NCBI RefSeq assembly: GCF_032464895.1
Contig: NZ_JAWDIC010000004.1
Span: 434,001 to 498,000 of the forward strand
DNA from: Phycicoccus sp. M110.8
Lineage (GTDB): Bacteria > Actinomycetota > Actinomycetes > Actinomycetales > Dermatophilaceae
DNA: 64,000 nucleotides
Direction: 5' to 3'
In this document: in pieces, positions 889 through 61,219 of the stretch
Layout: the number at the start of each line of letters is the position of its first letter
Numbering within the stretch: the first letter of the stretch is position 1
Translations under genes and position numbers: made by a program
Notes under the pieces: generated by a model
Databases searched by the model: none
Seen by the model: the letters and a program-made list of their open reading frames with translations, nothing else
Told to the model about the DNA's origin: nothing

Positions 889-1440
889 ATGACGACCGAC
901 GAGACCACCACGACTCTCGCCGAGCGCGTGGACCGCACCCTGCGCGACATCCCCGACTTCCCCGAGCCCGGCGTGGTCTTCAAGGACGTCACGCCGGTGC
1001 TCGCCGACGGTGCGCTGTTCGGTGACATCGTGCGCGACATGGCGCAGCGGTATGCCGGGCGCGTCGACGTCGTCGCGGGCGTGGAGGCCCGGGGCTTCAT
1101 CTTCGGTGCCGCCCTGGCCCACGAGCTCGGCCTCGGGTTCGTCCCGGTCCGCAAGGCGGGCAAGCTGCCCGGTGCCACGGTGTCGCTGTCCTACGCGCTC
1201 GAGTACGGCAACGCGACCATCGAGGTGCACGAGGACGGCTTCGAGCCCGGGGCGCGCGTGCTGGTCGTCGACGACGTGCTGGCCACCGGCGGGACGGCCG
1301 AGGCGGCCTGCCGGCTCGTCGAGCAGGTCGGGGCCACCGTGGTGGCGTTCGAGACGCTCGTCGAGCTGACCTTCCTCGGAGGTCGCGGTCGCCTGGCCGG
1401 GCGCGAGGTGCACACGACGGTCGTCGTCACGGGGGACTGA
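889..1440 (+). CDS. apt: Adenine phosphoribosyltransferase
   Basis: Converts adenine and PRPP to AMP and pyrophosphate in cytosolic purine salvage. The 183-residue product has the PRPP-binding loop VLVVDDVLATGGT (about residues 124-136), the N-terminal FPEPGVVFKDVTP segment and a GVEARGF motif, at the usual family length. The frame extends upstream to 613, but only the part after the ATG at 889 looks like Apt, and that ATG lies just after the secF stop. Only a weak GGGGA precedes it, so translation may be coupled to secF. Its place between secF and rsh is conserved in actinobacteria. Confidence 0.95.
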   Translation: MTTDETTTTLAERVDRTLRDIPDFPEPGVVFKDVTPVLADGALFGDIVRDMAQRYAGRVDVVAGVEARGFIFGAALAHELGLGFVPVRKAGKLPGATVSLSYALEYGNATIEVHEDGFEPGARVLVVDDVLATGGTAEAACRLVEQVGATVVAFETLVELTFLGGRGRLAGREVHTTVVVTGD

Positions 1441-1478
1441 GACGGCCGGACCCGCGTCGGCGGCACGGCCGCATCACG

Positions 1479-1484
1479 TAGGCT
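1479..1484 (+). promoter_or_regulatory. -10 box (TAGGCT) of a leaderless promoter for rsh
   Basis: TAGGCT lies 6 bases before the ATG at 1491, which would place the transcription start on the A of the ATG. There is no Shine-Dalgarno sequence. The -35 region is not recognisable. Confidence 0.6.
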
Positions 1485-1490
1485 CTTGTC

Positions 1491-3800
1491 ATGACTGAGG
1501 ACGTCGTCACCGGGCCCGTGCCCACGGGCGCGTCCTCGGCGAGCCGGGTCCGGGCCAGGCTGGCCCGCTTCGGGGCTCGCGGCGCCCCCGCGAACCCCGT
1601 CCTCGAGCCGCTGCTGCAGACGGTCCGGGCCACCCACCCCAAGGCCGACCTGACCGTCATCCAGCGCGCCTACGTCGTCGCCGAGGAGGCCCACCGGGGC
1701 CAGAAGCGCAAGTCCGGCGACGCGTACATCACGCACCCGCTCGCGGTCACGACCATCCTTGCCGAGCTCGGCATGACGCCGGCCACGCTGGCCGCGGCGC
1801 TGCTGCACGACACGGTCGAGGACACGGCATACGGGCTCGACCAGCTGGAGAAGGACTTCGGCCACGAGGTCGCGATGCTGGTCGACGGCGTCACCAAGCT
1901 CGACAAGGTGACCTACGGCGACGCGGCCCAGGCCGAGACGGTCCGCAAGATGGTCGTCGCGATGGCCAAGGACATCCGCGTCCTGGTCATCAAGCTGGCC
2001 GACCGGCTGCACAACGCCCGCACGTGGCGGTACGTCTCGGTCGAGTCGGCGCAGCGCAAGGCGCGCGAGACGCTCGAGATCTATGCGCCGCTGGCGCACC
2101 GGCTCGGCATGAACACCATCAAGTGGGAGCTCGAGGACCTGTCGTTCGCGACGCTCTACCCGAAGGTGTACGACGAGATCGTGCGTCTGGTCGCCGAGCG
2201 CGCCCCCGCCCGCGAGGAGTTCCTGGCCGGGGTGCGCGAGCAGGTCAGCGCCGACCTCAGGGCCGCCAAGATCAAGGCGACGGTCACCGGCCGGCCCAAG
2301 CACTACTACTCCGTGTACCAGAAGATGATCGTGCGCGGCCGCGACTTCGAGGACATCTACGACCTCGTCGCGGTGCGGGTGCTCGTGGACTCGGTGCGCG
2401 ACTGCTACGCGGCGCTCGGCGCGCTGCACGCGCGGTGGAACCCCCTGCCCGGGCGGTTCAAGGACTACATCGCGATGCCGAAGTTCAACATGTACCAGTC
2501 GTTGCACACGACGGTCATCGGTCCCGAGGGCAAGCCGGTCGAGATCCAGATCCGCACCCACACGATGCACCGCCGCGCCGAGTACGGCGTCGCCGCGCAC
2601 TGGAAGTACAAGGAGGACGCGACCGCCTCCGCCGCGGCCGCCAAGGACGGCGAGACCGGGCCGATCAGCGACATGGCGTGGCTGCGCCAGCTGCTCGACT
2701 GGCAGAAGGAGACCTCCGACCCGGGGGAGTTCCTCGACTCGCTGCGGTTCGAGATCAACGCCCGCGAGGTCTACGTCTTCACGCCCAAGGGCGAGGTCGT
2801 GGCGCTGCCCGCGGGGTCGACCCCTGTCGACTTCGCGTACGCCGTGCACACCGAGGTCGGTCACCACTGCATCGGCGGCCGGGTCAACGGCCGGCTCGTG
2901 CCGCTGGAGTCCACCCTCGAGAACGGCGACGTCGTCGAGGTGCTCACCTCCAAGGCCGACGGCGCGGGCCCCTCGCGCGACTGGCTGACGTTCGTCAAGA
3001 GCCCCCGCGCCCGCAACAAGATCAAGCAGTGGTTCTCCAAGGAGCGGCGCGAGGAGGCCATCGAGACCGGCAAGGACGCGATCGCCAAGGCGATGCGCAA
3101 GGAGGGCCTGCCGCTCCAGCGCCTGCTCACCGTCGAGACCCTGACCGGGCTCGCGTCCGAGCTGCGCTACCAGGACATCGACGCCCTGTATGCCGCGGTG
3201 GGCGAGGGCCACGTGTCCGCCCAGCACGTGGTGGGCCGGCTCGTCGCGTCGCTCGGCGGCGAGGAGGGCGCCTCGGAGGACCTCGCGGAGGCCACCACGC
3301 CGACCCGGTCCATGCGCCGCCGCACCGGGGACCCGGGCGTCGTGGTCGTCGGCACGGCCGACGTGTGGGTCAAGCTGGCCCGTTGCTGCACGCCGGTGCC
3401 GGGCGACCCGATCATGGGCTTCATCACCCGCGGCAACGGTGTCTCGGTGCACCGCACCGACTGCACCAACGCCGAGTCGCTGCTGTCCCAGCCCGACCGG
3501 ATGATCGAGGTCGAGTGGGCGCCGTCGTCGGCCTCGGTGTTCCTCGTCCAGCTCCAGGTCGAGGCCCTCGACCGCAACCGGCTGCTGTCGGACGTGACGC
3601 GGGTGCTGTCCGACCAGCACGTCAACATCCTGTCGGCGTCGGTGCAGACCTCGCGGGACCGGGTGGCGATCAGCAAGTTCACCTTCGAGATGGGCGACCC
3701 CAGCCACCTCGAGCACGTCATGAAGGCCGTCCGCAAGATCGACGGCGTCTTCGACGTCTACCGGATCACCGGCACCAAGGCGACGGCCGCCAAGGCCTGA
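1491..3800 (+). CDS. rsh: Bifunctional (p)ppGpp synthetase/hydrolase (RelA/SpoT homologue)
   Basis: Makes ppGpp/pppGpp from ATP and GDP/GTP and hydrolyses it again; the main stringent-response enzyme of actinobacteria. The 769 residues show the full long-RSH order: HD hydrolase (HDTVEDT near residue 105), synthetase ([12 protein letters not shown] near 265-277 and YQSLHT near 334), TGS (from about 425), the conserved Cys segment CCTPVPGD (near 631) and a C-terminal ACT domain (from about 686). Hydrolase and synthetase motifs both look intact, so a bifunctional enzyme is expected. The ATG sits 6 bases after a TAGGCT box, suggesting a leaderless transcript separate from secF-apt. Confidence 0.96.
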
Positions 3801-3860
3801 CCTCGCACTCGCACGTTCTGCCCGCGCGGCATACTGCGTCCCGGCACCCCGCAAAACGTC

Positions 3861-4346: not shown

Positions 4347-4350
4347 GTCG

Positions 4351-7228: not shown

Positions 7229-7924
7229 GTGCTCACGTTCGCCTTCCCCGGCAGGGTCATCGACGCCAACTGTTACGTCCTGGCCACCGGCCCGGGCGAG
7301 GAGTGCCTCGTCGTCGACCCCGGCATCGGCATCGAGGACACGCTGCGCGAGGTCCTGCGCGAGCACCGCCTGCGCCCGGCCGCGGTGCTGCTGACCCACG
7401 GCCACCTCGACCACGTCTACTCGGTGACGCCGGTCTGCGGCGGCGACACGGCGGCATACGTCCACACCGACGACCGCTACCGCCTGGAGGACCCGCTGGC
7501 GCACATCAGCGCACCCCTGCTGGCCATGGTGGAGCAGCAGTTCGGTGCACGTGCCACGTGGCGTGAGCCCGAGCGGGTCGTCGAGGTGACGGGCGGCCAG
7601 ACGCTGGAGCTCGCCGGGCTCACGGTCGACGTCGTGCACGCGCCGGGCCACACGGAGGGCTCCGTCCTCTTCGGTGTGCCGACGGTGCCGGACGGCGTGG
7701 CCGACCAGGTGGACGTCCGCTCGACAGTCCTCAGCGGTGACGTGCTCTTCGCCGGGTCGATCGGGCGCACGGACCTGCCCGGGGGCAGCGACACCGCCAT
7801 GCAGCGCTCCCTGCGCGAGGTCGTGCTGCCGCTGCCCGACACCACCCTCGTCCTGCCAGGCCACGGACCCGCGACCACGATGGACCGCGAGCGGGCGACC
7901 AACCCGTATCTGCAAGGCTTGTGA
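7229..7924 (+). CDS. Metallo-beta-lactamase-fold hydrolase (glyoxalase II-like)
   Basis: 231-residue MBL-fold protein with the metal-binding THGHLDHV motif (about residues 55-62), a later GHTEGSV histidine, SGDVLFAGSIGRTD (metal-bridging Asp) and PGHGPATT near the C-terminus. These are the features of hydroxyacylglutathione-hydrolase-like (YcbL-type) enzymes; since actinobacteria use mycothiol, the true thiol-ester substrate is unclear. It is two bases upstream of hisS, a neighbourhood seen in many actinobacteria. Start by the leaderless TAGGCT promoter. Confidence 0.88.
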   Translation: MLTFAFPGRVIDANCYVLATGPGEECLVVDPGIGIEDTLREVLREHRLRPAAVLLTHGHLDHVYSVTPVCGGDTAAYVHTDDRYRLEDPLAHISAPLLAMVEQQFGARATWREPERVVEVTGGQTLELAGLTVDVVHAPGHTEGSVLFGVPTVPDGVADQVDVRSTVLSGDVLFAGSIGRTDLPGGSDTAMQRSLREVVLPLPDTTLVLPGHGPATTMDRERATNPYLQGL

Positions 7925-9300: not shown

Positions 9301-10548
9301 ATGACGGCCAGCCCGGTCACCGACCCGCGGTCCAGCGGGGTCCAGTGCCACGTCACCTCGCTGCCGGGCGGCCGCCTCGGCGACGAGGCTCGCCGGTTCG
9401 TCGACTGGCTCGCCGACGCGGGCCAGACGCTGTGGCAGGTGCTGCCCGTCTCCGTGCCCGACCGCCACGGTTCGCCGTACAAGTCCCCGTCGGCGTTCGC
9501 CGCCTCGCCGGCGCTGCTCGAGCACCCCGACGCGCCCGTCGACCCCGACGAGGCGCGGGCGTTCGCCGAGCAGCAGGCGTACTGGGTGCGCTCGTGGACC
9601 GACTACGGCGGCGACCTCGACGACCAGGTCCGGTTCGGCCGGGAGTGGTCGGCGCTGCGGGCGTATGCCGCCGAGCGCGGCGTCCGCCTCATGGGCGACG
9701 TGCCGATCTACGTGGCCCCGGACGGCGCCGACGAGCGCGCGTGGCCCGAGTTCTTCCGCACCGATGCCGTGGCCGGGGTGCCGCCGGACGCGTATGCCGC
9801 GACCGGCCAGCTGTGGGGCAACCCGCTGTACCAGTGGGACGTCCTGCGCGAGGACGGGTACCGGTGGTGGGTCGAGCGGATCCGCCGCACGTTCGCGCTG
9901 TTCGACGTCGTGCGCGTCGACCACTTCCGCGGGTTCGCGGCCTACTGGGCCGTCCCAGCGGGGGCCGAGACCGCGCTGGACGGCCGTTGGGAACCGGGGC
10001 CGGGCCGTGCGGTCTTCGACGCTGCCACGGCCGAGCTCGGGACGCTGCCCGTCCTGGCCGAGGACCTCGGTGACATCGACCAGCCGGTGGTCGACCTGCG
10101 CCGGGCGCTCGGCTACCCCGGGATGGCGGTGCTCCAGTTCGCGTTCGAGCCCGCCTACGCCGACAACGTCCACGACCCCGAGCGGCTCGGCACCAACCAG
10201 GTGGTCTACACCGGCACCCACGACAACGACACGGTGTGCGGCTGGTGGGCCGCCCTGCCAGAGGAGCGGCGCAGGATGGCGCGGGACGCCTGCCACCGGG
10301 CGGGGACGCGCGCCGGCATCGACGAGGAGCCGTCGTGGGCGCTGATCGAGCTGGCGCTCGCGGCACCCTGCGGGTTGGCGGTCATGCAAGCCCAGGACGT
10401 CCTGTCGCTCGGGTCGGACGCGCGGATGAACGCGCCCGGCATCGAGGGTGGGTGGCGCTGGCAGATGGAGCCGGGCGCGCTGACCCCGGACCTCGCGCGT
10501 CGCCTGCGCGACCTCACCGAGGCGTCAGGCCGGCTCCCCGCTCACTGA
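9301..10548 (+). CDS. malQ: 4-alpha-glucanotransferase (GH77, short form)
   Basis: Amylomaltase that transfers maltosyl units between alpha-1,4-glucans in the cytosol. GH77 markers are present: VTSLPGG, SPYKSPSAFA, the nucleophile region VVRVDHFRGF (about residue 203), acid/base AEDLGDI (about 257) and THDNDT (about 307). At 415 residues it is shorter than the usual ~500 or ~700; the missing part is mainly the helical insert between SPALLEHP and the RLMGDVPIYVA strand. Catalytic residues look complete, so it is probably functional. The ATG is four bases after hisS. The 3' end overlaps the next minus-strand gene by 24 bases. Confidence 0.9.
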   Translation: MTASPVTDPRSSGVQCHVTSLPGGRLGDEARRFVDWLADAGQTLWQVLPVSVPDRHGSPYKSPSAFAASPALLEHPDAPVDPDEARAFAEQQAYWVRSWTDYGGDLDDQVRFGREWSALRAYAAERGVRLMGDVPIYVAPDGADERAWPEFFRTDAVAGVPPDAYAATGQLWGNPLYQWDVLREDGYRWWVERIRRTFALFDVVRVDHFRGFAAYWAVPAGAETALDGRWEPGPGRAVFDAATAELGTLPVLAEDLGDIDQPVVDLRRALGYPGMAVLQFAFEPAYADNVHDPERLGTNQVVYTGTHDNDTVCGWWAALPEERRRMARDACHRAGTRAGIDEEPSWALIELALAAPCGLAVMQAQDVLSLGSDARMNAPGIEGGWRWQMEPGALTPDLARRLRDLTEASGRLPAH

Positions 10549-11191: not shown

Positions 11192-12121
11192 GTGCCACCT
11201 CCCAGCGCGCTCGAACGGGCCGTCCGGGGCTGGCTGGACCACCTCGACGTCGAGCGCGGTGCGAGCCCGCACACCCTGTCGTCCTACCGGCGTGACCTGG
11301 CCCGCTGGACGGCATACCTGCAGGCCAAGGGGGTCACGGAGCCGGGTGATGTGCGCGAGGGCCACGTCACCGACTTCCTCGCCTCGCTGCGCGAGGGCAG
11401 CGAGGGCCACCCGCCGCTGGCCGCGTCGTCGGCCGCCCGCACGCTGGTCGCGGTGCGCGGGTTCCACCGGTTCCTGGCGCTCGAGGGCGACGTCGCGACG
11501 GACCCGACGGCCGCCGTCAGCCCGCCGACGCCTCCCGCCCGGCTGCCGAAGGCGATCACGGTGGAGGAGGTCGAGCGGCTGCTCGCTGCCGCAGGCGTGG
11601 GCGACACCCCGGTGGCGCTGCGCGACCGGGCCCTGCTCGAGGTCCTGTACGGCGCGGGCGCGCGGATCAGCGAGGCGGTCGGCCTCGACGTCGACGACAT
11701 CGACACCGACGAGGGCGTGGTCCGGCTCTTCGGCAAGGGGCGCAAGGAGCGGATCGTCCCCCTCGGCTCGTATGCCGCGACAGCCCTGGCGGCCTACCTC
11801 GTCCGGGGCCGGCCGGCCCTGGCGACGCAGGGGAGGGGCACTGCCGCAGTGTTCCTCAACCAGCGGGGCAACCGGCTCTCGCGGCAGTCGGCGTGGGCGG
11901 CGATCCGGGCCGCCGCCGAGCGGGCCGACCTGTCCGGCCACCTGTCGCCGCACACGCTGCGCCACTCGTTCGCGACCCACCTGCTCGACGGCGGTGCGGA
12001 CGTGCGCGTCGTGCAGGAGCTGCTCGGGCACGCCTCGGTGACGACGACCCAGATCTACACGCTCGTCACGGTCCAGCGGCTGCGGGAGGTGTACGCCCAG
12101 TCGCACCCGCGGGCGCGGTGA
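11192..12121 (+). CDS. xerD: Site-specific tyrosine recombinase XerD
   Basis: XerD, with a partner recombinase, resolves chromosome dimers at dif. The N-terminal SAM-like core-binding domain ([15 protein letters not shown]) is followed by the catalytic domain with Arg in [15 protein letters not shown], Lys region [12 protein letters not shown], the [15 protein letters not shown] box, and [15 protein letters not shown] with the Tyr nucleophile. 309 residues from the GTG at 11192; an in-frame ATG at 11171 would add seven residues but lies upstream of the TACACT promoter box. Position before ParA-scpA-scpB is conserved in actinobacteria. A candidate dif site lies in this window at 56,856. Confidence 0.92.
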
Positions 12122-12201
12122 CCGCATCGGACGCCGAAGCCACCGTCGACGCGCCCGGGGTGCGGGGCCCCGATGACCGCAAGGGCCGGCATACCCGCTG
12201 A

Positions 12202-14205: not shown

Positions 14206-14866
14206 GCAGCAGGCCGAGACCGACCCCGTGGTCGAGGAGCCGGCGACCGAGGTGGAGCCGGCGACCGAGGCGCCCGTGGCCGAGGAGCAGTTCGCGTTCG
14301 ACGTCAACGACTTCCCGGGTGGCGCCCGGTCGGCGCTCGAGGCCGTCCTCATGGTCGTCGACGAGCCGGTCACCGAGGTCGCCCTGGCCTCCGCGCTCGA
14401 GCTGCCCGTCGACGACGTCCGCGAGCACCTCGAGGGCCTCGAGCGCGAGTATGCCGAGCAGCAGCGTGGGTTCACGCTGCGCAGCGTCGCGGGCGGCTGG
14501 CGTGTCTACAGCCGCAGCGACTACGCCGCGGTCGTCGAGAAGTTCCTGCTCGACGGGCAGCAGGCCAAGCTGACCCAGGCGTCGCTGGAGACCCTGGCCG
14601 TCATCGCCTACCGCCAGCCGATCTCCCGGTCGCGGGTCAGCGCGGTCCGCGGAGTCAACGTCGACGGCGTCGTGCGCACCCTGCTCAACCGCGGGCTCAT
14701 CGAGGAGCTCGGCGCCGAGGGCGACTCCGGTGCCGTCCTCTACGGCACCACCGACTATTTCCTGCAACGCCTCGGCCTCGGCTCGATCGATGAGCTGCCG
14801 GCCCTGGCTCCCTACCTCCCGGAGGTCGACGTGCTCGACGAGATCGCAGAGCAGGGTCGCGCATGA
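14198..14866 (+). CDS. scpB: Segregation and condensation protein B
   Basis: Partner of ScpA in the SMC condensin complex. Two winged-helix domains are visible: ALEAVLMVVDEPVTEVALASAL and LTQASLETLAVIAYRQPISRSRVSAVRGV (about residues 125-153), followed by LLNRGLIEELG and a GTTDYFLQRLGL wing. The N-terminal 35 residues are Glu/Pro/Thr repeats. The ATG at 14198 follows a CAGGAGAG Shine-Dalgarno at good spacing and lies inside the end of scpA; the stop overlaps the next start as ATGA. 222 residues. Confidence 0.93.
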   Translation: MSEQQAETDPVVEEPATEVEPATEAPVAEEQFAFDVNDFPGGARSALEAVLMVVDEPVTEVALASALELPVDDVREHLEGLEREYAEQQRGFTLRSVAGGWRVYSRSDYAAVVEKFLLDGQQAKLTQASLETLAVIAYRQPISRSRVSAVRGVNVDGVVRTLLNRGLIEELGAEGDSGAVLYGTTDYFLQRLGLGSIDELPALAPYLPEVDVLDEIAEQGRA

Positions 14867-16040: not shown

Positions 16041-17123
16041 GTGACTCCCTCCGTGCGGATCGTCGGCACCGGCCTCATCGGGACCAGCCTGGGCATCGCC
16101 CTGAGCCGGGCCGGGTATGCCGTGTCGCTGGCCGACCCGTCGCCGACCGCCGTGGCGCTGGCCCGTGACCTCGGCGCAGGAGCGGTGGCAGGAGCAGACG
16201 CACCCGACCCCGACGTGGTCGTGGTCGCGGCGCCGCCGGACGTGGCGGGCGCCGTGGTCGCGCTGGAGCTCACGTCGTGGCCGAACGCCGTGGTCACCGA
16301 TGTCGCCTCGGTCAAGGTCGCCGTCCTCGACGACGTCCGTGCACGGGGCGGGGACGTCACACGGTACGTCGGCTCCCACCCCATGGCGGGGCGCGAGCGG
16401 TCGGGGGCCGTGGCGGCCCGCGGCGACCTCTTCGACGGGCGGGCCTGGGTCGTGGTGCCGCACGCCGCGTCATCGGCGGCGGCCGTGCAGACCGTGCAGG
16501 AGCTGGCGCGCGCCGCCGGCGGCACCGTGTCGACCATGGACCCCGAGGCGCACGACGCAGCCGTCGCGGCGGTGTCGCACGTGCCTCAGGTCGCCGCCTC
16601 CCTGGTGGCGAGCCGGCTGCGCGACCTCGGCGAGCCCGCCGTCGCGCTCTCGGGCACCGGCATCCGCGACGTCACCCGGATCGCCGCCAGCGACCCCCAG
16701 CTCTGGACGCAGATCCTGTCCGGCAACGCGGCCGCGGTCCGCCACGTGCTCGTCGACCTCCGGGACGAGCTCGACCAGGTCGTCACCGCCCTGACCCGGC
16801 TGAGCGAGGGTGACGCCGTCGGCGCACGCGAGGTGCTGGCCCGGGTCGTCGCCCACGGGAACGCCGGCCACGCGCGGATCCCCGGCAAGCACGGCGCCGC
16901 GCCGACGGCATACGGCGTCGTGGTCGTGCTGGTCCCGGACCAGCCGGGCGAGCTCGCGCGGCTGCTGCACGACGTCGGCGACGCAGGCGTCAACCTCGAG
17001 GACCTCCACCTCGAGCACGGCCTCGGCCAGCCGTTCGGGCTCGCCGAGATCTCGGTGCTGCCCGGTGTCGTCGAGCGCCTCGGCGAGGAGCTGCGCGTCC
17101 GCGGCTGGCGGCTGCACGGCTGA
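16041..17123 (+). CDS. tyrA: Prephenate dehydrogenase with C-terminal ACT domain
   Basis: Oxidatively decarboxylates prephenate to 4-hydroxyphenylpyruvate in tyrosine synthesis. A Rossmann motif VGTGLIGTSLGIAL opens the protein, followed by SHPMAGRERSG (about residue 113) and SHVPQVAASLVASRL, both typical of the enzyme. From about residue 292 an ACT domain (VVVLVPDQPGELARLLHDVG) is present, which in this family senses aromatic amino acids. 360 residues. Starts at GTG 16041 after a leaderless promoter; cmk follows 21 bases later with its own box. Confidence 0.92.
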   Translation: MTPSVRIVGTGLIGTSLGIALSRAGYAVSLADPSPTAVALARDLGAGAVAGADAPDPDVVVVAAPPDVAGAVVALELTSWPNAVVTDVASVKVAVLDDVRARGGDVTRYVGSHPMAGRERSGAVAARGDLFDGRAWVVVPHAASSAAAVQTVQELARAAGGTVSTMDPEAHDAAVAAVSHVPQVAASLVASRLRDLGEPAVALSGTGIRDVTRIAASDPQLWTQILSGNAAAVRHVLVDLRDELDQVVTALTRLSEGDAVGAREVLARVVAHGNAGHARIPGKHGAAPTAYGVVVVLVPDQPGELARLLHDVGDAGVNLEDLHLEHGLGQPFGLAEISVLPGVVERLGEELRVRGWRLHG

Positions 17124-18547: not shown

Positions 18548-18674
18548 CCGCCCGTCCCTGCGCCCGCCCGGGCCGACCTGTCCGGGGCACCCGCCGAGAT
18601 GCGAGACAATGGGCGCCGGCCCCACGGCATACCTGCGCCGCGGCGGCCCCACCACGACTCCCCGAGGACCTGCT

Positions 18675-32227: not shown

Positions 32228-35110
<2,883 letters not shown>

Positions 35111-43226: not shown

Positions 43227-43807
43227 CGGGCGTCCTCCTCGGGCAGGGCGAGCTCGACGGGGGTGGTGCGGGCCCGCCACTGCGCCACGTCCGCACGCGT
43301 GATGCCGAGGTCGACCACCGCCTGGTCGTCGCCGCGCTGGTCGTCCGCGGAGCGGCCGAGGACCAGGTGTGACCCGGGCAGCGCGTCGTGGTCCACCTCG
43401 AACGCGGTGATGCAGTGGCCGGGTATGCCGGGGTTGGTCAGCTCGCAGCGCAGCACGTTGCGGGTGCCGAGGCTGACGACGCGGCCGCGGCCGTCCCGCA
43501 GCTCGGCCCAGCCGAACGCCGTGTTGTCCAGGGTCGGGGTCACCTCCGCCTCGACCGTCACCCAGAGGTCGGGGGAGAGCATCGCCTCGGTCGTGGTGGA
43601 CAGCTGCCGACCGCCGTCGACGCGCGAGACGACGACGTCGGCATACCGCAGGTGGGCGGGGTGACCCACGGTGGTGGCGCGCTCGAACGGTCGCACCGGG
43701 GACGGGCCCTCCGGGAGCCACTCGGTGACGACGCGTCCCAGGGACAGCGCGGCGAGGACGAGGGCGCCGGCGCCCAGCTGGGCCCTGCTCGGGCGGGGCA
43801 GCCTCAT
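43223..43807 (-). CDS. Single-pass exported protein, second gene of the trio
   Basis: 194 residues: helix AQLGAGALVLAALSLGRVV near the N-terminus, then a domain with LRYADVVVSRVDGGRQL, LWVTVEAEVTPTLDNTAFGWAELRDGRGRVVSLG, and two Cys (LRCELTNPGIPGHCITAF) likely forming a disulfide. The WAELRDGRGR turn resembles FVRVRDGAGR of the downstream gene, so the two may be distant paralogues. No function recognised. Four-base overlaps on both sides show translational coupling. Confidence 0.7.
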   Translation of the reverse strand: MRLPRPSRAQLGAGALVLAALSLGRVVTEWLPEGPSPVRPFERATTVGHPAHLRYADVVVSRVDGGRQLSTTTEAMLSPDLWVTVEAEVTPTLDNTAFGWAELRDGRGRVVSLGTRNVLRCELTNPGIPGHCITAFEVDHDALPGSHLVLGRSADDQRGDDQAVVDLGITRADVAQWRARTTPVELALPEEDAR

Positions 43808-45204: not shown

Positions 45205-45855
45205 GTGGCGGACCGGCAGCGATCGGCCCAGGGACGCCCGTCGGGATCGCTCGACGGCTTCCCCACCCGGCGCCTGACGCGGGCGACGGACCTCTTCCGC
45301 GCCCACCGGGCCGACCGCGGTCCGTGGTGGTTCGGCAACGACGGGGGAGGGCGGTTCGACCTGACCGCCCCGCGCGGCACCTGCTACCTCGCGCTCGACC
45401 CCTGCAGCGCCGTGCGCGAGCGGCTCGGCCCCGTCCTCGGCGGTCGGCGGGAGGTGCCGGCGTCGCTGCTCGAGGAGGTGCTCGTGTCGACCCTGCACGT
45501 CCCCGCGCCGACCGAGGTCGCCGACGTGCAGTCCCGCGAGGCCGGCGACTTCGGGGTCACCCGCGAGCTCGAGAGCATGGTCCCGTATGCCGTGCCCCAG
45601 GCGTGGGCGCGAGCGTTCGACGACGCGGGCCTGGGCGGGGTGGCCTACGGGCCGAGGTTCACGCCCGGGGAGGCGAGCGCGGTGGGGCTGTTCGGTCCGG
45701 CCGGCGCCGCCGACCGGCCGGTCGACCCCGCGCCGGTGCAGGCCGTCGCGGTCGAGGGGGTGCCCGTGTCGCTGGCCCCGCCACGGCTGGCGGACCTCAC
45801 CGTGGTGCGGCCGCCCAGGACCCGCACGACGCGGCTTGGCCAGGCTGACGACTAA
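45205..45855 (+). CDS. RES-domain protein, putative NAD-consuming toxin
   Basis: 216 residues with the RES fold: FRAHRADRGPWWFG, GGRFDLTAPRGTCYLALDPCSAVRERLG and RFTPGEASAVGLFG. The three name-giving residues can be placed as Arg32 (or Arg35), Glu72 and Ser158. RES toxins such as MbcT of Mycobacterium degrade NAD+ and are held by the upstream antitoxin. This protein is longer at both ends than MbcT. Starts with GTG one base after the antitoxin stop. Family assignment is good; toxic activity is inferred. Confidence 0.78.
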   Translation: MADRQRSAQGRPSGSLDGFPTRRLTRATDLFRAHRADRGPWWFGNDGGGRFDLTAPRGTCYLALDPCSAVRERLGPVLGGRREVPASLLEEVLVSTLHVPAPTEVADVQSREAGDFGVTRELESMVPYAVPQAWARAFDDAGLGGVAYGPRFTPGEASAVGLFGPAGAADRPVDPAPVQAVAVEGVPVSLAPPRLADLTVVRPPRTRTTRLGQADD

Positions 45856-46529: not shown

Positions 46530-47372
46530 ATGCGACTGCGGTACCGCCTGCTCAACGTGTTCGCCCGGGAGGGAGACCCGTTCTCGGGCAACCCGCTGTG
46601 CGTCTTCGAGGACGGATCCGGGCTGTCGGACGACCAGATGCTCGCCCTGGCCCGCCAGTTCAACCTCTCGGAGACGACCTTCGTCGTGCCGCCTGCCGAC
46701 GGTGCCGACGCGGGGGTGCGGATCTTCACCACGGCCTACGAGATGCCCTTCGCCGGGCACCCGACGCTCGGCACGGCGCACGTGGCCCGGGCGCTGGGCC
46801 TCGGCGGCGACCGCCTCGGTCTGTCGATGCCGGCCGGCGTCATCCCCGTCCAGGCGTCCGGCGACACCTGGACGCTGACGGCCAACCCCGGCCGGGTCGA
46901 GGCCGACCTCGACCTCGCCGACCTCGCCGCTGCGCTGTCGCTCGAACCCGGGGACCTGGTCGCGCCGGCGCAGCAGGTGTCGGTGGGCACGACCCAGGTC
47001 ATCGCCCCCGTCGCCGACGCGGACGCCGTGCGGCGTGCGCGGGTGGTCCCCACCGCGTTCCCCAGGTATGCCGGGATGGGCCGCAGCGGGGAGGCCCTCG
47101 TCTACGTGTGGGCGCGGACCGGCCCGGGGACGATCCTCGCCCGGGCGCTGCTCAGCGACGGCTCCTCGCTGGCGGAGGATCCCGCGACGGGGTCGGCGTG
47201 CTCCAACCTCGGGGCCTGGTTCGCCGCCCAGGGCACCACGGGGTCGTGGGAGGTCAGCCAGGGCGAGCAGGTGTCCCGTCCCTCCACTCTGCGGCTGGGC
47301 GTCGACGAGGTCGGCACGGTGCGTGTCGGAGGGCTGGTGCACGAGGTCGGCGGGGGAGAGGTGGTCCTCTGA
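46530..47372 (+). CDS. PhzF-family isomerase
   Basis: 280 residues of the PhzF/DapF-like fold: LNVFAREGDPFSGNPLCVFED, ARQFNLSETTFVVPP with the catalytic Glu (about residue 50), MPFAGHPTLGTAHVA, and in the second half LAEDPATGSACSNLGAWFA. PhzF of phenazine synthesis is one member; most bacterial homologues are uncharacterised isomerases and no other phenazine gene is present here. Start ATG 46530 with CACAGT 6 bases upstream. Overlaps the DUF1697 gene by one base; first of three coupled genes. Confidence 0.9.
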   Translation: MRLRYRLLNVFAREGDPFSGNPLCVFEDGSGLSDDQMLALARQFNLSETTFVVPPADGADAGVRIFTTAYEMPFAGHPTLGTAHVARALGLGGDRLGLSMPAGVIPVQASGDTWTLTANPGRVEADLDLADLAAALSLEPGDLVAPAQQVSVGTTQVIAPVADADAVRRARVVPTAFPRYAGMGRSGEALVYVWARTGPGTILARALLSDGSSLAEDPATGSACSNLGAWFAAQGTTGSWEVSQGEQVSRPSTLRLGVDEVGTVRVGGLVHEVGGGEVVL

Positions 47373-47908
47373 TGCCCGAGTTCGTCGTCTTCCTGCGCGC
47401 CGTCAACGTCGGCAAGCGCAAGCTCACCATGGCGGAGGCCCGGGACGCGTTGTCCGACAGCGGGTTCGCGGACGTCGAGTCGCACATCCAGACCGGCAAC
47501 TTCCTGCTCGGGACGAACATGCGCAGCGCGGCCAAGGTGGAGGCCGCGGTCAGCACGTGCCTCAGCGCCCACGCCGGCTTTGACATCGTGTCGATGGCGC
47601 GCACCCGCACGCAGGTCCGCGCCCTCGTCGAGGAGGTCGACGGCATACCGGCGGTGTGGGAGGGGTCGTCGCGCTATGTCTCCTTCCTCGCCGACGCCCC
47701 TGCCGCTGCGGCGCGCAGGCGGCTGGAGGAGTGGGACGAGAGCAAGGAGCGTGCGTTCGTCCTCGGCAAGGAGGTGCTGCTCGAGATCGGTGGCCCCTTC
47801 CACGAGGCCAGGCTCGGGAATGCCCTGCTGGAGAAGATCGCTGGAGTGGACGGAACGGCCCGCAACATGACCGTGGTGCGGGCGATCGCTGAGAAATGGG
47901 GTGCCTGA
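47372..47908 (+). CDS. DUF1697 family protein
   Basis: 178 residues with the DUF1697 pattern: FVVFLRAVNVGKRKLTMAEARDALSDSGFADVESHIQTGNFLL at the N-terminus and ARNMTVVRAIAEKW at the end. The family is widespread, cytosolic and functionally uncharacterised. The ATG overlaps the phzF stop (TGATG) and its TGA overlaps the osmC ATG (CTGATG), so the three genes are translated together. Confidence 0.88.
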   Translation: MPEFVVFLRAVNVGKRKLTMAEARDALSDSGFADVESHIQTGNFLLGTNMRSAAKVEAAVSTCLSAHAGFDIVSMARTRTQVRALVEEVDGIPAVWEGSSRYVSFLADAPAAAARRRLEEWDESKERAFVLGKEVLLEIGGPFHEARLGNALLEKIAGVDGTARNMTVVRAIAEKWGA

Positions 47909-51299: not shown

Positions 51300-51334
51300 C
51301 TGTATGCCGCGGTGCCCGGCACCGCGGCATACAG
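51300..51334. promoter_or_regulatory. Perfect 16-bp inverted repeat in the divergent tdh/yciO promoter region
   Basis: CTGTATGCCGCGGTGC (51300-51315) is exactly inverted at 51319-51334 with spacer CCG. Each arm contains the octamer GTATGCCG. The right arm covers five of the six bases of the yciO -10 box TACAGT (51330-51335). It could be an operator for both genes or a paired form of the genome-wide octamer. Confidence 0.6.
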
Positions 51335-52392: not shown

Positions 52393-53234
52393 GGGGCGTC
52401 CGCGTCCCCCACGCCCAGCAGGCCGATGAGGCGCACGGCGTCGTACGGCGCGCGGCCGTCGGCGTCGTTGTCGAAGTAGATGTACGCGTCCTCGCCCGCG
52501 GCCGTCCACCGCTGGAGCTGCTCGGCCCAGGACGAGAGGGTCGCGTCCGAGTAGCCGCCGCCGTAGAGCCGTTGCTCGCCGTGGAGCCGCACGTAGTGGA
52601 ACGAGGCCGTGCCGTCGCCCATCGTCGGGAACCGGCCGGCGGTGTCGGCGTGCACCATGGCCACGTCCTTTTCCCGCAGCAGGGCCCGGGCCTCATCGGT
52701 GTCGAAGGAGGCGTGCCGTGGCTCGAGTGCGTGCCGCACGGGACGGTGCGTCCCCGGCTTGGTCAGGACCCGGTCGTCGGCCAGCTTGTCGTCATGCCGG
52801 CGGGCGAGGGCGGCCATGGCCGTCGTGGTGCGGGGGAGCAGGTCGAGGAAGTCCCGCACGACCGCCGCGTCGAACTCGACCCGTTCCGGCAGCTGCCACA
52901 GCACCGGGCCGAGGCTCGGACCGAGCGCCAGCGGCCCCGAGGCGAAGAAGTTCGCCAGGCCCGTCTCCACCCCACGCAGCCGCTTGAGGTGGGTGATGAA
53001 GCGGCCTCCCTTGACCGCCAAGGGGTAGCCCTCGGGCACCGCGCTGCGCCACCCGGCATACGTGCTGGGGCGGCGCAGCGAGTAGAACGAGGCGTTCACC
53101 TCGATCGAGGTGACGCGGCCGGCGAGGTACGCGAGCTCGTCCCGCTGGCGCAGGCCCTTGGGGTAGAAGTCGCCGCGCCACCGCGGGTACAGCCACCCGG
53201 ACGTCCCCACCCAGGCCTGACCCTGCCGGTCCAC
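52383..53234 (-). CDS. DUF72 (YecE-like) protein
   Basis: 283 residues with the DUF72 TIM-barrel-like signs: AWVGTSGWLYPRWRGDFYPKGL, RVTSIEVNASFYSLRRPSTYAGW, PLAVKGGRFITHLKRL, LGPVLWQLPERVEFD, SFHYVRLHGEQRLYGGGYSD and a C-terminal AYIYFDNDADGRAPYDAVRL. The family is widespread and its activity is unknown. GTG at 53234, five bases after the aldo-keto reductase stop, so it is the last gene of the CarH-like/AKR/DUF72 run. Confidence 0.9.
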   Translation of the reverse strand: MDRQGQAWVGTSGWLYPRWRGDFYPKGLRQRDELAYLAGRVTSIEVNASFYSLRRPSTYAGWRSAVPEGYPLAVKGGRFITHLKRLRGVETGLANFFASGPLALGPSLGPVLWQLPERVEFDAAVVRDFLDLLPRTTTAMAALARRHDDKLADDRVLTKPGTHRPVRHALEPRHASFDTDEARALLREKDVAMVHADTAGRFPTMGDGTASFHYVRLHGEQRLYGGGYSDATLSSWAEQLQRWTAAGEDAYIYFDNDADGRAPYDAVRLIGLLGVGDADAPGT

Positions 53235-55615: not shown

Positions 55616-56797
55616 TCACACCCGCTCGAGCAGGACCGCCACCTCGTGGTGGGCGCTCTGCGGGAACATGTCGAAGAGCCGTGCCGAGCGCACGCGCAGC
55701 GACGGCATGGCGGCAAGGTCGCGCGAGAGTGACGTGACGTTGCAGCTGGAGTAGATGACGTGGCGCAGCTCGGGCGAGTGCTCGATGCGCCACGCGAGGT
55801 CGGCCCCGATGCCACGGCGTGGGGGGTTGACGACGAGGACCTCGGGGGAGCCCGGTGTGGTTCCCGCCGGCTCGCTGGACGCGTCCGCGTCCCGGGCCGG
55901 CCCGAGGCCCTGGGTGGCATCACCCGCTTCGAAGACGGCGGTCCCGGGCGTGGCGCCCATCTCGGTGGCCGTGCGGTTGGCGCTGTCGACGGCGGCGGGG
56001 GAGACCTCGACACCCCGGACGGCCCGCACGGCGCCGGCGCGCAGGGCGTGCAGGGCGAAGCCACCCACCCCGCAGTAGAGGTCCAGCAGGACCCTCGGGT
56101 CCAGGGTGGACATCCACTCGGTCGCCTGTCGGTAGAGGCCGGTGGCGACCGCTGTGTTCGTCTGGAAGAAGCTCTGCGGACGCAGGTGCAGCGCCACGTC
56201 GTCCACGCGCATCGTCAGGGAGTCGGCCTCGGTGAGGACGACCTCCTCGGCACCCTCGAGCACGGCCTTGTGCTCCGGCAGCAGGTTCGCCGTGACGACC
56301 GTGGCGGCAGGGAGCGTCGTCCGGAGGTCGTCGAGCGCCTCGCGCAGACGGGGCAGCTGGCCGGGTGAGCGCAGCACGAACCGGAGCATGAGCTCGCCGT
56401 CGGGGGAGGCGGTCACCAGGATGTTCTTGAGCTCGCCCGAGCGCTGTCCGACGTCGTAGGGCGTCAGGCCGCTCCGTGAGACCAGGCCCGGCAAGGCCCG
56501 CACCGCGTCGGCCAGGGCCGGCTCGTAGAGGCCGCACCCCGTCAGGTCCGCGACGCCACCACCACCGTCGAGGATGCCCAGGACGGTGGCGCCGCGGCGT
56601 CCGCCGACCACCAGCTTGGCCTTGTTGCGGAACCCGGACTCCGGGCCGGAGAACGGCGCGAGCCAGACGGCTTCGTCGACGTGCGCGGCGAGTGCGGACC
56701 GGACCGATGTGTCCTTGTCGGCGAGCTGCACGGCATACGGCACTCCCATGAACGTGCACGAGCGGCACACGCCGGCATCGAAGTAGTCGCACTGCAC
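55616..56797 (-). CDS. rlmC: 23S rRNA (uracil-C5)-methyltransferase, RlmC-like
   Basis: SAM-dependent RNA methyltransferase of the TrmA/RumB group, 393 residues. The N-terminal QCDYFDAGVCRSCTFM carries the cluster-binding Cys as in RlmC; then GFRNKAKLVVGG, SFFQTNTAVATGLYRQA, the SAM motif VLLDLYCGVGGFALHAL, VLVVNPPRRGIG and the catalytic Cys in YSSCNVTSLSRDL. GTG 56797 is supported by TACCCT 6 bases upstream and by Cys positions. Modification of U747 is inferred from the family. Ends 15 bases from whiB, convergent. Confidence 0.88.
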   Translation of the reverse strand: MQCDYFDAGVCRSCTFMGVPYAVQLADKDTSVRSALAAHVDEAVWLAPFSGPESGFRNKAKLVVGGRRGATVLGILDGGGGVADLTGCGLYEPALADAVRALPGLVSRSGLTPYDVGQRSGELKNILVTASPDGELMLRFVLRSPGQLPRLREALDDLRTTLPAATVVTANLLPEHKAVLEGAEEVVLTEADSLTMRVDDVALHLRPQSFFQTNTAVATGLYRQATEWMSTLDPRVLLDLYCGVGGFALHALRAGAVRAVRGVEVSPAAVDSANRTATEMGATPGTAVFEAGDATQGLGPARDADASSEPAGTTPGSPEVLVVNPPRRGIGADLAWRIEHSPELRHVIYSSCNVTSLSRDLAAMPSLRVRSARLFDMFPQSAHHEVAVLLERV

Positions 56798-57339: not shown

Positions 57340-59040
57340 TCAGGGCAGGTAGTACATGGGGTTCGGCAGCTTGACCGCGCGGTCGGCGTGGCCGCCGATG
57401 AGGTCGCTGAACTGGTCGCCGAAGTTGGCCACCACGTCGTAGCCGAGGTCCTCCTCGACGTGCTTGCGCACGGTCGACTTGTACTCGATGGTGGTGCAGC
57501 TCGGGTACGCGACGCAGTCCGACGCCGTCACGTACGACGGCGGGGTCGAGCCGCTGACCCACTTCGTGAAGTAGGTCTCCGGCGTGAAGCCCTGGTACCC
57601 GACCTTGGCGAGGTTGGCCAGCGTCGCGTCCTTCTGGGTGTCGTTGCGTCCGGTGAGGCCGACGAGGGTGCAGCCGGCCTGCGCGGCCGCGTTGACGAGG
57701 TCGACCATGCCGGGCGTCGCCGGGAACTTGCCCTCGTTCACCCAGGGCGCCTGCGCGGCCGGGGTGAAGACGAACTTCATGTCACCGACCTCCATGTTGT
57801 AGCCCCAGAGGGTGGTGTCGTCGGCGTCGAGCACGACCGCCGGCTTGCGGCCCTCCTGGGCCTCGGTGGCGCAGGTCTGCAGCAGCCGCGTGCGCTGCTG
57901 CTTCTCGATCGTGGCCATCTCGGAGATGTAGCGCGAGGAGGTCGTGGCCGCGGTGCCGGTGCCCTTGGGGTCGCCGTAGTAGGCGTAGATGGTCTTCTTC
58001 ACCGAGTCGATGTTAGGGATCCCCTCGCCACCCTGGGTCAGGCCGCTCGAGCCGTCCGGCTCCATGGTGAAGTGCGTCCGCGGCGCGAGCCACGGCTCCT
58101 TCACGCCGGGCAGGTTCGGCGACGGCAGGTAGTACGTCGGGTTGGGCAGCTTGAGCCAGTGGTCGGCGTACCCGCCCTGGAGGTCGGAGAACTGGTCGCC
58201 GACGTTGAGGGCGATGTCGTAGCCGAGGTCCTGCTCGATGTGCTTGCGCGTGCCCGCCTTGTACTCGACCGTCGTGCACGTCGTGACCGCCGCGCAGGTG
58301 AGGTATGCCGGCGGCGTGGTCCCGGAGTTGAACTTCGTGAAGTAGCGGTCCGCGGTGAATGCCGTGTAGCCGACCTTCGCGAGGTTGCCGAGCGTGTGCG
58401 CCTTCTGGCTGTCGCTGCGGCCGGTGAGTCCGAACACGGTGAAGCCCATGGCCTGGGCGTCGTTGACGAAGTCGACCATTCCGGGCACGGCGGGCATCTT
58501 CTCCCCGTCGATCCACGGCGCCTGCGCCTGGGGGGTGAACACGAACTTCATGTCCCCCACCTCCATCTGGTAGGTCCACAGCGTCGTGTCGTCGGCGTCG
58601 AAGACGATGGCCGGCTTCTCGTGGTGGCGCCTGGCGTCGGCGAGCAGGCGCGGCAGCTGCTGGCGCTCCCGGGCCAGGATCCCGGCCATCTCGCGGACGT
58701 ACGGCGAGTCGGTCGGGTTGGCGGCGCCCGTGCCCTTGGGGTCTCCGTAGTAGGCGTAGATGGTCTTCTTGACCGAGTCGATGTTGGGGATGCCCTCGCC
58801 GCTGGCCGTGTAGCCGCTGGACCCGTCGTCCTTCATCGTGAAGTGGGTGCGGGGCGCGAGCCGCTGGTCGCGCCGGTCCTGCCGACCATGGTGGTCGTCG
58901 GTGCCGTGGGCGCTCGCGGGGGCCGCGACCGAGACGGCGGCTGCGGCCAGGGACAGGGTCGCCAACCCGGCGACCACCGCCGCTCGCCGGGTGCGGGGGG
59001 CGGTCGAGCCGACCCCTTCGTGCTGGGTGGGTCGACTCAT
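57340..59040 (-). CDS. Secreted acid phosphatase (HAD class B/plant-type), tandem duplicated
   Basis: 566 residues: Sec signal (AAVVAGLATLSLAAAAVSVAAPASA), then two homologous modules (about 61-316 and 318-566). Each has LAPRTHFTM, GEGIPNIDSVKKTIYAYYGD, the HAD nucleophile loop FDADDTTLW or LDADDTTLW, EVGDMKFVFTP, FGLTGRSD or VGLTGRND and GDQFSDL. Both active sites look intact. Four to six Cys are scattered in the second half of each module. Exported phosphomonoesterase for phosphate scavenging is the family expectation. AGGAGCT precedes the ATG. Confidence 0.88.
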   Translation of the reverse strand: MSRPTQHEGVGSTAPRTRRAAVVAGLATLSLAAAAVSVAAPASAHGTDDHHGRQDRRDQRLAPRTHFTMKDDGSSGYTASGEGIPNIDSVKKTIYAYYGDPKGTGAANPTDSPYVREMAGILARERQQLPRLLADARRHHEKPAIVFDADDTTLWTYQMEVGDMKFVFTPQAQAPWIDGEKMPAVPGMVDFVNDAQAMGFTVFGLTGRSDSQKAHTLGNLAKVGYTAFTADRYFTKFNSGTTPPAYLTCAAVTTCTTVEYKAGTRKHIEQDLGYDIALNVGDQFSDLQGGYADHWLKLPNPTYYLPSPNLPGVKEPWLAPRTHFTMEPDGSSGLTQGGEGIPNIDSVKKTIYAYYGDPKGTGTAATTSSRYISEMATIEKQQRTRLLQTCATEAQEGRKPAVVLDADDTTLWGYNMEVGDMKFVFTPAAQAPWVNEGKFPATPGMVDLVNAAAQAGCTLVGLTGRNDTQKDATLANLAKVGYQGFTPETYFTKWVSGSTPPSYVTASDCVAYPSCTTIEYKSTVRKHVEEDLGYDVVANFGDQFSDLIGGHADRAVKLPNPMYYLP

Positions 59041-59667: not shown

Positions 59668-59771
59668 GCCCGGTCCCCCCACCGCGCCGGTGACATGGCC
59701 GGCCGATGGGTGGCCGACCGGTCGACCCGGTCTCGACCAAACGCAGGAGACGCCATCCGTGCGGGTCGGGT

Positions 59772-59777
59772 TAGGGT
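59772..59777 (+). promoter_or_regulatory. -10 box (TAGGGT) of a near-leaderless promoter for the VanY-type gene
   Basis: TTAGGGT ends 8 bases before the ATG at 59786. Confidence 0.5.
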
Positions 59778-59785
59778 CGTGCAGG

Positions 59786-61219
59786 ATGGCAGTTCGTCCG
59801 CCGGCGGGTCCGGCGGCAGGGGTGGAGACAGGACGAGACGTGGCGCGGTTGGGTGGACGCGCCGGCCTCGCGGCAGCAGTACTCGCGGCCGTGGCGCTGG
59901 CAGGGGCAGCACCCGCACACGCCGCGACAGCCTCCCCATCCGCCCCCTCCGTCACACCCGTCACACCTCCCACCAGCGCGACCGGCCCGACGCCCGGCCC
60001 GACCGGCACGGCCGCGTCGCCGGGCTCGGGTGCGACGTCGGGCACGGGCGACGTCACCGGCAAGGCGACCGCCACACCCGGTGCCGGCGGTGAGCGGACC
60101 CTGAGCCCGGCGGACGTCGCCGCCCAGATCGCCAAGGCCGACGCGCTCACCGCGGACCTCGGCCGCACCAACGCCGGGATCGCGGCCGCGGCCGAGAAGC
60201 TGTCACGCCTGGCCGTGCAGGCCAACGCCCTGCTCCAGCAGTACTCCGAGGCCAGCACGCAGGAGCGCGCTGCGCGCGACGAGGCCGCCCGCGACGTCGC
60301 GCTGTACCAGCGGCTGAGCAGCCAGATGGGACAGGACCGCCGGGCACTCGCGCAGTGGGCCTACCTCGCGTATGCCGGTACCGGCGGCACCATCACGGAC
60401 GTGGGCGCACTGCTCGACACCCTGGGCAAGCCGGCGGCCGAGGCCAGCGACAGCGCGGCCCAGCTGTCCTACCTGAGCGACCTCAGGGCGGGCGCGTTCG
60501 CGCGCGTGCAGAATCAGACCGAGCTGCAACGCTCGGTCGCCGTCCGCGCGGTCGAGGCCAGCACGCGGGCCACGGAGGCCGCTGCGGCAGCCAAGGCCGC
60601 CAAGGACCAGCTCGACGTCGTCATCGCCGAGCAGAAGTCCCAGCTCGAGACGACCCGCGCCCTGCACGCCGCGCAGGTGTCCAAGGCGGGCCCCGTCGCC
60701 GGGCTGCTGCTCGGCAGCGGCGACCCCGCCGCGGTCGACGCGTTCAAGCGGCTGCGCAAGGCCCTCGTCGTCCCCGGGGTGTCGGCGGACGGGTCGGTCA
60801 AGCCGTGCAGCACCAACGAGAACGACTACCCCAACGGCCAGATCCCCGCCGCCGGGCTGTGCCCGCTCGTGGGCGATCCCAGCCAGAGCCTGCGCCCGAG
60901 CGCGGCCGCCGCGTTCAACGAGATGAGCCTGGCGTACCAGAAGGACACGGGGAAGCCGCTGTGCATCACCGACTCCTACCGCTCGTACGCCGAGCAGGTG
61001 GCGGTCAAGGCGAGCCGTGGGAAGTGGGCGGCCGAGCCGGGCACGAGCGAGCACGGTCTGGGCCACGCCGTGGACCTGTGCGGCGGGGTCGAGGACTTCG
61101 GCAACCCGGCCCACCTGTGGATGGTGCAGAACGCCCCCCTGTACGGCTGGTTCCACCCCGACTGGGCCGAGCCGCAGGGCGCTCTGCCCGAGCCGTGGCA
61201 CTGGGAGTTCGCCGGCTGA
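59786..61219 (+). CDS. Exported D-alanyl-D-alanine carboxypeptidase (VanY/M15B family) with coiled coil
   Basis: 477 residues: signal peptide (GLAAAVLAAVALAGAAPAHA, about residues 27-46), a Thr/Pro/Gly linker, a long helical coiled-coil region (about 110-300, rich in Ala, Gln, Glu), then the M15B peptidase with CITDSYRSYAEQV, SEHGLGHAVDLCGG (zinc ligands His and Asp) and EPWHWEF (third His). It trims peptidoglycan stems; the coiled coil resembles that of NlpC/P60 RipA-type wall hydrolases, which keeps activity controlled (inference). Start at ATG 59786 after TAGGGT. Confidence 0.9.
   Translation: MAVRPPAGPAAGVETGRDVARLGGRAGLAAAVLAAVALAGAAPAHAATASPSAPSVTPVTPPTSATGPTPGPTGTAASPGSGATSGTGDVTGKATATPGAGGERTLSPADVAAQIAKADALTADLGRTNAGIAAAAEKLSRLAVQANALLQQYSEASTQERAARDEAARDVALYQRLSSQMGQDRRALAQWAYLAYAGTGGTITDVGALLDTLGKPAAEASDSAAQLSYLSDLRAGAFARVQNQTELQRSVAVRAVEASTRATEAAAAAKAAKDQLDVVIAEQKSQLETTRALHAAQVSKAGPVAGLLLGSGDPAAVDAFKRLRKALVVPGVSADGSVKPCSTNENDYPNGQIPAAGLCPLVGDPSQSLRPSAAAAFNEMSLAYQKDTGKPLCITDSYRSYAEQVAVKASRGKWAAEPGTSEHGLGHAVDLCGGVEDFGNPAHLWMVQNAPLYGWFHPDWAEPQGALPEPWHWEFAG

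Follow-up and report, generated by a model that had tools for sequence, protein, structure and literature searches.

The 64,000-nucleotide stretch of Phycicoccus sp. M110.8 analysed here (contig NZ_JAWDIC010000004.1, positions 434,001 to 498,000; hereafter the window) carries the octamer GTATGCCG/CGGCATAC in many copies, and their origin and role were investigated. Exact matches were collected on both strands, and genes, codon frames and intergenic labels were taken from our own simple gene finder. The window holds 38 copies, of which 20 are on the plus strand and 18 on the minus strand, while an order-2 Markov model expects 1.0 (Table 1). An earlier interpretation made from the letters alone (the sequence-only reading) had reported at least 38 copies as a strong over-representation; the count is exactly 38, the expectation of about two was replaced by the value above, and among the starts it listed only 1826 had to be moved by one position, to 1825. 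Eight of the 38 copies lie between genes, including the four sites (3827, 12187, 20187 and 24897) previously described as intergenic. The pair at 51302-51332 forms a perfect inverted repeat, which is not an ordinary terminator because the flanking genes diverge. The octamer copies account for 38 of the 70 TAT trinucleotides on the two strands of the window, in accordance with the claim that most of them belong to it. A dif-like site is present at 56858-56876, with one mismatch to the search pattern, which we take to be that of dif.

Table 1. Copies of the octamer in the window, and the two ends of the interruption in the second Tad cluster elsewhere in the same genome (our own coordinates)
Feature	Position	Strand	Basis
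octamer GTATGCCG	1050..1057	+	exact match
octamer	1825..1832	-	exact match
octamer	3188..3195	+	exact match
octamer	3827..3834	-	exact match; intergenic
octamer	7452..7459	-	exact match
octamer	9663..9670	+	exact match
octamer	9792..9799	+	exact match
octamer	11310..11317	-	exact match
octamer	11770..11777	+	exact match
octamer	12187..12194	-	exact match; intergenic
octamer	14449..14456	+	exact match
octamer	16115..16122	+	exact match
octamer	16906..16913	-	exact match
octamer	18625..18632	-	exact match; intergenic
octamer	20187..20194	+	exact match; intergenic
octamer	21662..21669	-	exact match; intergenic
octamer	24897..24904	-	exact match; intergenic
octamer	25635..25642	+	exact match
octamer	26918..26925	+	exact match
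octamer	30288..30295	+	exact match
octamer	30519..30526	-	exact match
octamer	33183..33190	-	exact match
octamer	33289..33296	+	exact match
octamer	34636..34643	+	exact match
octamer	38108..38115	-	exact match
octamer	38863..38870	-	exact match
octamer	41081..41088	+	exact match
octamer	43423..43430	+	exact match
octamer	43639..43646	-	exact match
octamer	45585..45592	+	exact match
octamer	47066..47073	+	exact match
octamer	47641..47648	-	exact match
octamer, left arm of inverted pair between divergent genes	51302..51309	+	exact match; intergenic
octamer, right arm of the 51302-51332 inverted pair	51325..51332	-	exact match
octamer	53054..53061	-	exact match
octamer	56731..56738	-	exact match
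octamer, right of dif-like site	58303..58310	+	exact match
octamer, right of dif-like site	60370..60377	+	exact match
split tadA part, second Tad cluster	L164:9764-10687 = G000:C1:2162263-2163186		gene breaks off here
next gene of second Tad cluster	G000:C1:2221498-2222172		~58 kb past tadA break

The abundance was then calculated for the whole genome of 4.117 Mb. It contains 2,476 copies (1,234 and 1,242 on the two strands), compared to 135 (74 and 61) for the reversed octamer used as control. A 364-kb genome sample contains 219 copies, for which Markov models of orders 1 to 6 expect 4.9, 6.1, 10.2, 59.4, 147 and 216. The sequence-only reading had named a ratio near one at order 5 or 6 as evidence against over-representation; taken literally, this is what order 6 gives (about 1) and nearly what order 5 gives (1.5). 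Orders 5 and 6 are not usable as a test because the heptamer TATGCCG almost always lies inside the octamer (222 heptamers, 219 full octamers in the sample) and the signal is already absorbed in the model. Codon choice is free of this flaw and is the decisive control. Around the core the preferences are weak: A is disfavoured immediately before it (4/117, against 187/688 for matched codons), and the second base after it is preferentially G (77/117 vs 2,604/6,704).

The two strands are used equally. Across 18 genome stretches the balance did not depart from equality (chi2 6.9, 17 degrees of freedom, p 0.98), as had been claimed, and the strand totals in 83 enriched genomes of the family Dermatophilaceae were 84,630 and 84,776, with p<0.01 in none of the 83. 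The further claim that the balance holds on both sides of the dif-like site stands on its left (18 plus and 18 minus copies) and has thin support on its right, where there are just two copies, both on the plus strand. The copies are spaced more evenly than random placement would give (coefficient of variation 0.775 vs 0.989 +/- 0.070), and gaps below 100 bp make up 2.8% of all gaps, less than the 5.9 +/- 1.5% expected. Each of 16 stretches of 20 kb contains 7-16 copies, and an insertion-bearing stretch contains 5.

The effect of the octamer on codon usage was analysed in 404 kb holding 235 copies. There were 117 copies read as nnG-TAT-GCC-Gnn, 61 as antisense Ala-Tyr, 16 as Gly-Ile and 6 in three other frames, and the remaining 35 lie between genes or at gene edges. 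The earlier statement that all reading frames are used is right in that six frames were seen, but 178 of the 200 coding copies fall in two of them. The density is 0.68/kb in intergenic or gene-edge DNA and 0.57/kb in coding DNA. Tyrosine is encoded by TAT in 117 of 140 cases of nnG-TAy-GCC-Gnn and in 24 of 2,005 cases elsewhere (Fisher p ~1e-143); when one or both of the flanking bases around TAT-GCC are altered, TAT appears in 1/30, 1/37 and 1/43 cases. The same holds for the alanine codon GCA in CGGCxTAC (61/87 vs 3/184 elsewhere) and the isoleucine codon ATA in C-GGC-ATx-C (16/78 vs 7/3,181 elsewhere); these are the three rare codons which the octamer had been said to force. The most codon-biased fifth of the genes has the lowest density (0.31/kb), the other fifths ranging from 0.46 to 0.84. 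Selection acts at the DNA level, as synonymous codon choice shows and as had been proposed.

The distribution of the octamer among relatives was analysed taking at least 0.1 copy per kb as enriched. In 149 Dermatophilaceae genomes, 83 were enriched (31 of 53 genera), 13 intermediate and 53 poor, the last with a median density of 0.010/kb. The restriction to the family was judged within the class, in a sample of 296 genomes, 7 of the family and 289 outside it. The maximum outside was 0.052/kb (G175, 386 copies compared to 176 for the reversed control; G, g, f, L and C codes are our own handles). LeuS of the window's genome is 89-90% identical to those of Knoellia remsis and K. koreensis, motif counts for such named records coming from one locus each. 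The LeuS of G143 is identical to that of K. koreensis, and the LeuS of G037 to that of Janibacter melonis. In a LeuS tree of 53 rows the GTATGCCG genomes are scattered over several parts of the family, and well-supported branches force at least nine changes of the GTATGCCG label. The tree has a single gene and a midpoint root, covers 36 of the 40 G genomes (G007, G039, G049 and G083 left out for want of a usable LeuS), and has doubtful placements (G011 with Arachnia, three outgroups inside the family); it suggests that GTATGCCG is ancestral and was repeatedly lost or changed.

The conservation of individual sites was compared with that of shifted control octamers in ordered pairs among 26 enriched genomes or named loci. 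A pair was kept if at least 1,500 bases aligned; the pairs overlap, so the counts are not independent. Orthologous octamers were exact in 30/34 cases at about 90% identity (controls 81/185), 42/47 at about 85% (91/273), 297/521 at 80% (566/2,984), 747/2,017 at 75% (1,524/11,773) and 6/35 at 70% (27/243). A first check of the window's genome with K. koreensis had given 7 of 9 sites kept on a background of 0.26. In Janibacter none of three aligned GTATGCCG sites survives.

Other words were searched for by a scan for rare synonymous codons in fixed contexts in 40 genomes (14.8-340 kb sampled from each) and by a frame-aware octamer scan of 21 of these; G019 had no testable octamer in either. As a positive control, the codon scan ranked GTATGCCG or an overlapping word first in 14 of 20 enriched genomes. 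Four words stood out in both scans: GGATGCCG in G026 (81 in 80 kb vs 7.8 expected, codon p 1e-21.6), CGATGCGG in G057 (62 vs 14.2, 1e-21, one genome only), CGAAGGGG in the Janibacter genome G037 (77 vs 9.4, 1e-18.8) and GTATGCGG in G020 (20 vs 1.4, 1e-7.5). None has a strand skew in the sampled stretches. Counts over the whole family revealed that the words follow genera. GGATGCCG has 2,099-4,480 copies in all seven genomes of g17, g27 and g44 (3,816-3,949 in the three of g17 and g27, 2,099-4,480 in the four of g44) and 241-1,336 in the other 142; CGAAGGGG has 1,746-3,180 in each of the 11 g37 and g38 genomes and 87-396 in the other 138; GTATGCGG has 511-1,204 in all four g21 genomes and at most 476 in the other 145. 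In the g44 genomes G044, G079, G103 and G118, GTATGCCG and GGATGCCG number 1,217 and 2,195, 1,189 and 2,099, 288 and 3,619, and 361 and 4,480; two related words stand in inverse proportion, as if a dialect switch were under way.

The aligned sites indicated two modes of replacement. In G020, GTATGCGG stands at 14 of the 60 aligned positions where enriched genomes have GTATGCCG, which is an in-place change. In G026 just 6 of 139 aligned GGATGCCG sites coincide with GTATGCCG in an enriched genome, and GGATGCCG therefore mostly arises there at other places. Janibacter and g38 (G037, G126; loci L232-L235, L174, L193, L208 and L209) carry thousands of unskewed CGAAGGGG copies with G preferred at -2 and +1; CGAAGGGG either fills the same role with an unrelated sequence or is an abundant motif of another kind. 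Words like GTACGCCG are enriched in g24, g25 and g40, and GTACGGCG is enriched in G069, partly backed by rare GTA codons (G024 1e-11, G023 1e-8.7, G040 1e-5.6, G069 1e-5.5). However, where a GTATGCCG site is lost, GTACGCCG is what most often takes its place (152 cases), and CGTACG is palindromic; these words are therefore ambiguous as dialects.

The competence and pilus genes, for which the sequence-only reading had recommended a search, were found. A ComEC domain is present in 145 of the 149 family genomes. The window's genome has adjacent open reading frames (ORFs) for ComEA (SLBB and helix-hairpin-helix) and ComEC near leuS. Its Tad/Flp cluster at L203 has no visible break and encodes an ATPase, a T2SSF protein, a 65-amino-acid Flp-like ORF without Pfam match and TadE-like proteins, one above and one below the Pfam cut-off. 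The tadA gene of a second Tad cluster is present in every one of the 20 genomes compared, rich or poor, and 18 of them also have the genes that follow it. In Micrococcus luteus, tad genes from both clusters are needed for transformation, according to the available text of PMC4322843.

The octamer is abundant, balanced between the strands, selected at the DNA level, conserved in position and confined to the family, and relatives have dialects; for this reason GTATGCCG quite probably works like a DNA uptake sequence (DUS), and we know of no other class of motif with all these features. Among the candidate roles that had been listed for the octamer, the uptake signal is the best fit: strand skew is missing, the window's genome lacks RecC, the octamer keeps to the family and has genus variants, and genes for competence and pili are present. 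GTATGCCG would most likely be the ancestral uptake word of Dermatophilaceae, and together with the words of the relatives it is a probable self-DNA tag. A surface receptor, probably part of or tied to the Flp/Tad competence pilus and the ComEA-ComEC channel, would bind double-stranded DNA bearing the octamer and import it preferentially, and homologous recombination would then place the imported DNA in the chromosome. As fragments bearing the word would be imported and recombined more often, alleles completing it would spread by biased transmission (molecular drive). Such a drive could yield a copy about every 1.7 kb on the two strands, some copies lying between genes and others within them, the latter mostly where the protein tolerates them (Tyr-Ala, Ala-Tyr, Gly-Ile). 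If the specificity of the receptor changed, the genome would gradually be rewritten to a new word, giving genus-specific dialects. A wider proposal, somewhat less secure yet favoured on balance, is a family-wide self-DNA code of Gram-positive bacteria, probably as old as Dermatophilaceae, in which at least four words (GTATGCCG, GGATGCCG, GTATGCGG and CGAAGGGG) replaced each other on the family tree, g44 is midway from GTATGCCG to GGATGCCG, and a new receptor sits on Flp/Tad pili. CGATGCGG, coming from one genome only, is set beside the four words.

The alternative which survives best is an epigenetic or protected methylation site, in which the octamer would be the target of a methyltransferase and owe its frequency to selection or mutation bias. 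It would agree with thousands of unskewed copies at conserved positions and with an abundance comparable to that of the cyanobacterial octamer HIP1, and changes of methyltransferase specificity could also yield dialects. We consider it unlikely, as the octamer is not palindromic, restriction would deplete rather than enrich it, and further assumptions are needed to account for the even spacing and for the fully different word of Janibacter; it is also unusual, to our knowledge, for an enzyme to have a non-palindromic site of 8 bp. Another alternative is a recombination hotspot of the Chi type, recognised by RecBCD, AdnAB or a different nuclease that processes DNA ends. RecC (PF04257) is missing in the window's genome and in 19 of the 27 enriched genomes searched. 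Its occurrence in 8 of 27 enriched and 18 of 33 other genomes is the reverse of what such a role requires. Together with the lack of skew, in contrast to the strand-skewed Chi of E. coli, this disfavours Chi/RecBCD and renders the whole class improbable, even though a non-palindromic octamer of fitting length and density under DNA-level selection is what a Chi site would be.

A site for a protein of the nucleoid or of chromosome segregation (KOPS-, matS- or Noc-like) has an equally small chance. The genome-wide, conserved distribution, more even than random and with every one of the sixteen 20-kb stretches occupied, would be suitable for it; KOPS-like sites are strand-skewed, however, and the equal strand use, also left of the dif-like site, disfavours KOPS, while the switching of words among genera is hard to square with a conserved segregation protein. 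That the octamer is a by-product of codon or Tyr-Ala dipeptide usage has a negligible probability: the two major frames do encode Tyr-Ala or Ala-Tyr, but intergenic density is equally high and TAT is chosen only where both flanks complete the octamer, which rules out a cause at the protein level.

Several observations weigh against the uptake-sequence interpretation. Close inverted pairs are scarce (4 of 217 gaps are below 60 bp), and in Neisseria such pairs of the uptake word can act as terminators. The second Tad cluster of the window's genome is interrupted in tadA (Table 1), and the genome may therefore not be transformable now. The first 9.3 kb behind the break, the sampled part of the presumed insert, is in contrast a point in favour, as it has no octamer where about 5.4 are expected; it also has a lower GC content, and the insert is probably a mobile element lodged in what is likely a gene for competence. 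Since the octamer persists in the genome, the break would have to be recent if uptake depends on the second Tad pilus. No gene was found to track the motif, as motif-poor relatives likewise have ComEC, T2SSE ATPases and the two loci com and tad-2, and no candidate receptor was found among ComEC, the T2SSE ATPases, RecC and the genes of the two loci when rich and poor genomes were compared. The presence of ComEC was rejected as a switch for the motif in view of its frequency in the family. Secretion ATPases gave a match in 60 of 60 genomes (59 above the cut-off) with types common to rich and poor, and were likewise rejected. In the com and tad-2 loci of 10 rich and 10 poor genomes (gene calls being partial at one G084 locus) no gene was present in all 10 rich and none of the poor, the strongest leanings being 5 to 0, 7 to 2 and 7 to 3.

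The dialect results also contain contrary points. The codon scan misses GTATGCCG in 6 of the 20 enriched genomes (14.8-20 kb sampled from each), G051 having no testable context. Five genomes that do not belong to g21 (G011, G018, G089, G104 and G109) have GTATGCGG above background, at 364-476 copies, and the dialect borders are therefore not sharp. Nine poor genomes with 80-100 kb sampled from each (G010, G041, G045, G049, G058, G061, G083, G084 and G125) gave no convincing word in either scan; if all of them are competent, many lack a tag. Within this group, G045 (L248-L251, L271) has the rare-codon contexts AATCCAGA (1e-8.3) and AGCCGCAG (1e-8.0), perhaps from one repeated gene, G125 has GGTCTACG (23 vs 5.7), and the hit of G041 is weak. 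Finally, a mild enrichment of GTATGCCG was seen in the family f29, genus g94, in a few of 59 genomes (copies and control: G423 170/27, G442 97/17, G440 74/28, G444 78/18).

Uptake sequences have been described from two families, Neisseriaceae and Pasteurellaceae, in the available text of PMC5031613. The Neisseriaceae DUS, in the portion of PMC3630211 consulted here, is alike in its thousands of copies, its family-restricted word and its dialects by species and genus. In contrast, Dermatophilaceae are Gram-positive with Flp/Tad pili, the core has 8 bp instead of 10-12, one clade has an apparently unrelated word, and the receptor ComP has no known counterpart for GTATGCCG. The Pasteurellaceae uptake signal sequence AAGTGCGGT has a short core and hundreds to several thousand copies per genome in the same text of PMC5031613, and differs in sequence, lineage and Gram-negative uptake. 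Transformation of M. luteus (PMC4322843, available text) involves the same phylum, two tad clusters, comEA and comEC; the term 'uptake sequence' does not occur in the main texts of PMC4322843, PMC8467076 and PMC12849477, and the octamer search covered genomes other than that of M. luteus.

If the uptake-sequence interpretation is true, Actinobacteria would add a third case, independent of the other two, in bacteria that lack an outer membrane and have another pilus, and self-DNA recognition would be shown to evolve repeatedly. The search for a new sequence-reading receptor would open, g44 and Janibacter would be natural experiments on code change, and barriers to gene exchange among genera could be explained; laboratory transformation of Dermatophilaceae could also be helped. 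Among the titles and abstract openings listed by the literature searches, with most subscription papers and bioRxiv outside their scope and hence as weak evidence, there was nothing on an actinobacterial uptake sequence, on the abundance of this octamer or on a transformation test for Dermatophilaceae (Intrasporangiaceae).

Among other motifs, the cyanobacterial HIP1 (GCGATCGC) is a highly iterated palindromic octamer, in genes and between genes. The present octamer is likewise highly iterated in both locations; unlike HIP1 it is not palindromic and has dialects. In 20 of the 49 kb of phage TJE1 (GC 57%), GTATGCCG, GGATGCCG and CGATGCGG occur 2, 3 and 5 times; such counts would have to be read against the dialect of the host and are uninformative here. 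In the 364-kb sample of the window's genome, CGGGGGAG/CTCCCCCG is likewise enriched (97 vs 23.8 expected at order 3) and is possibly a segregation or other motif.

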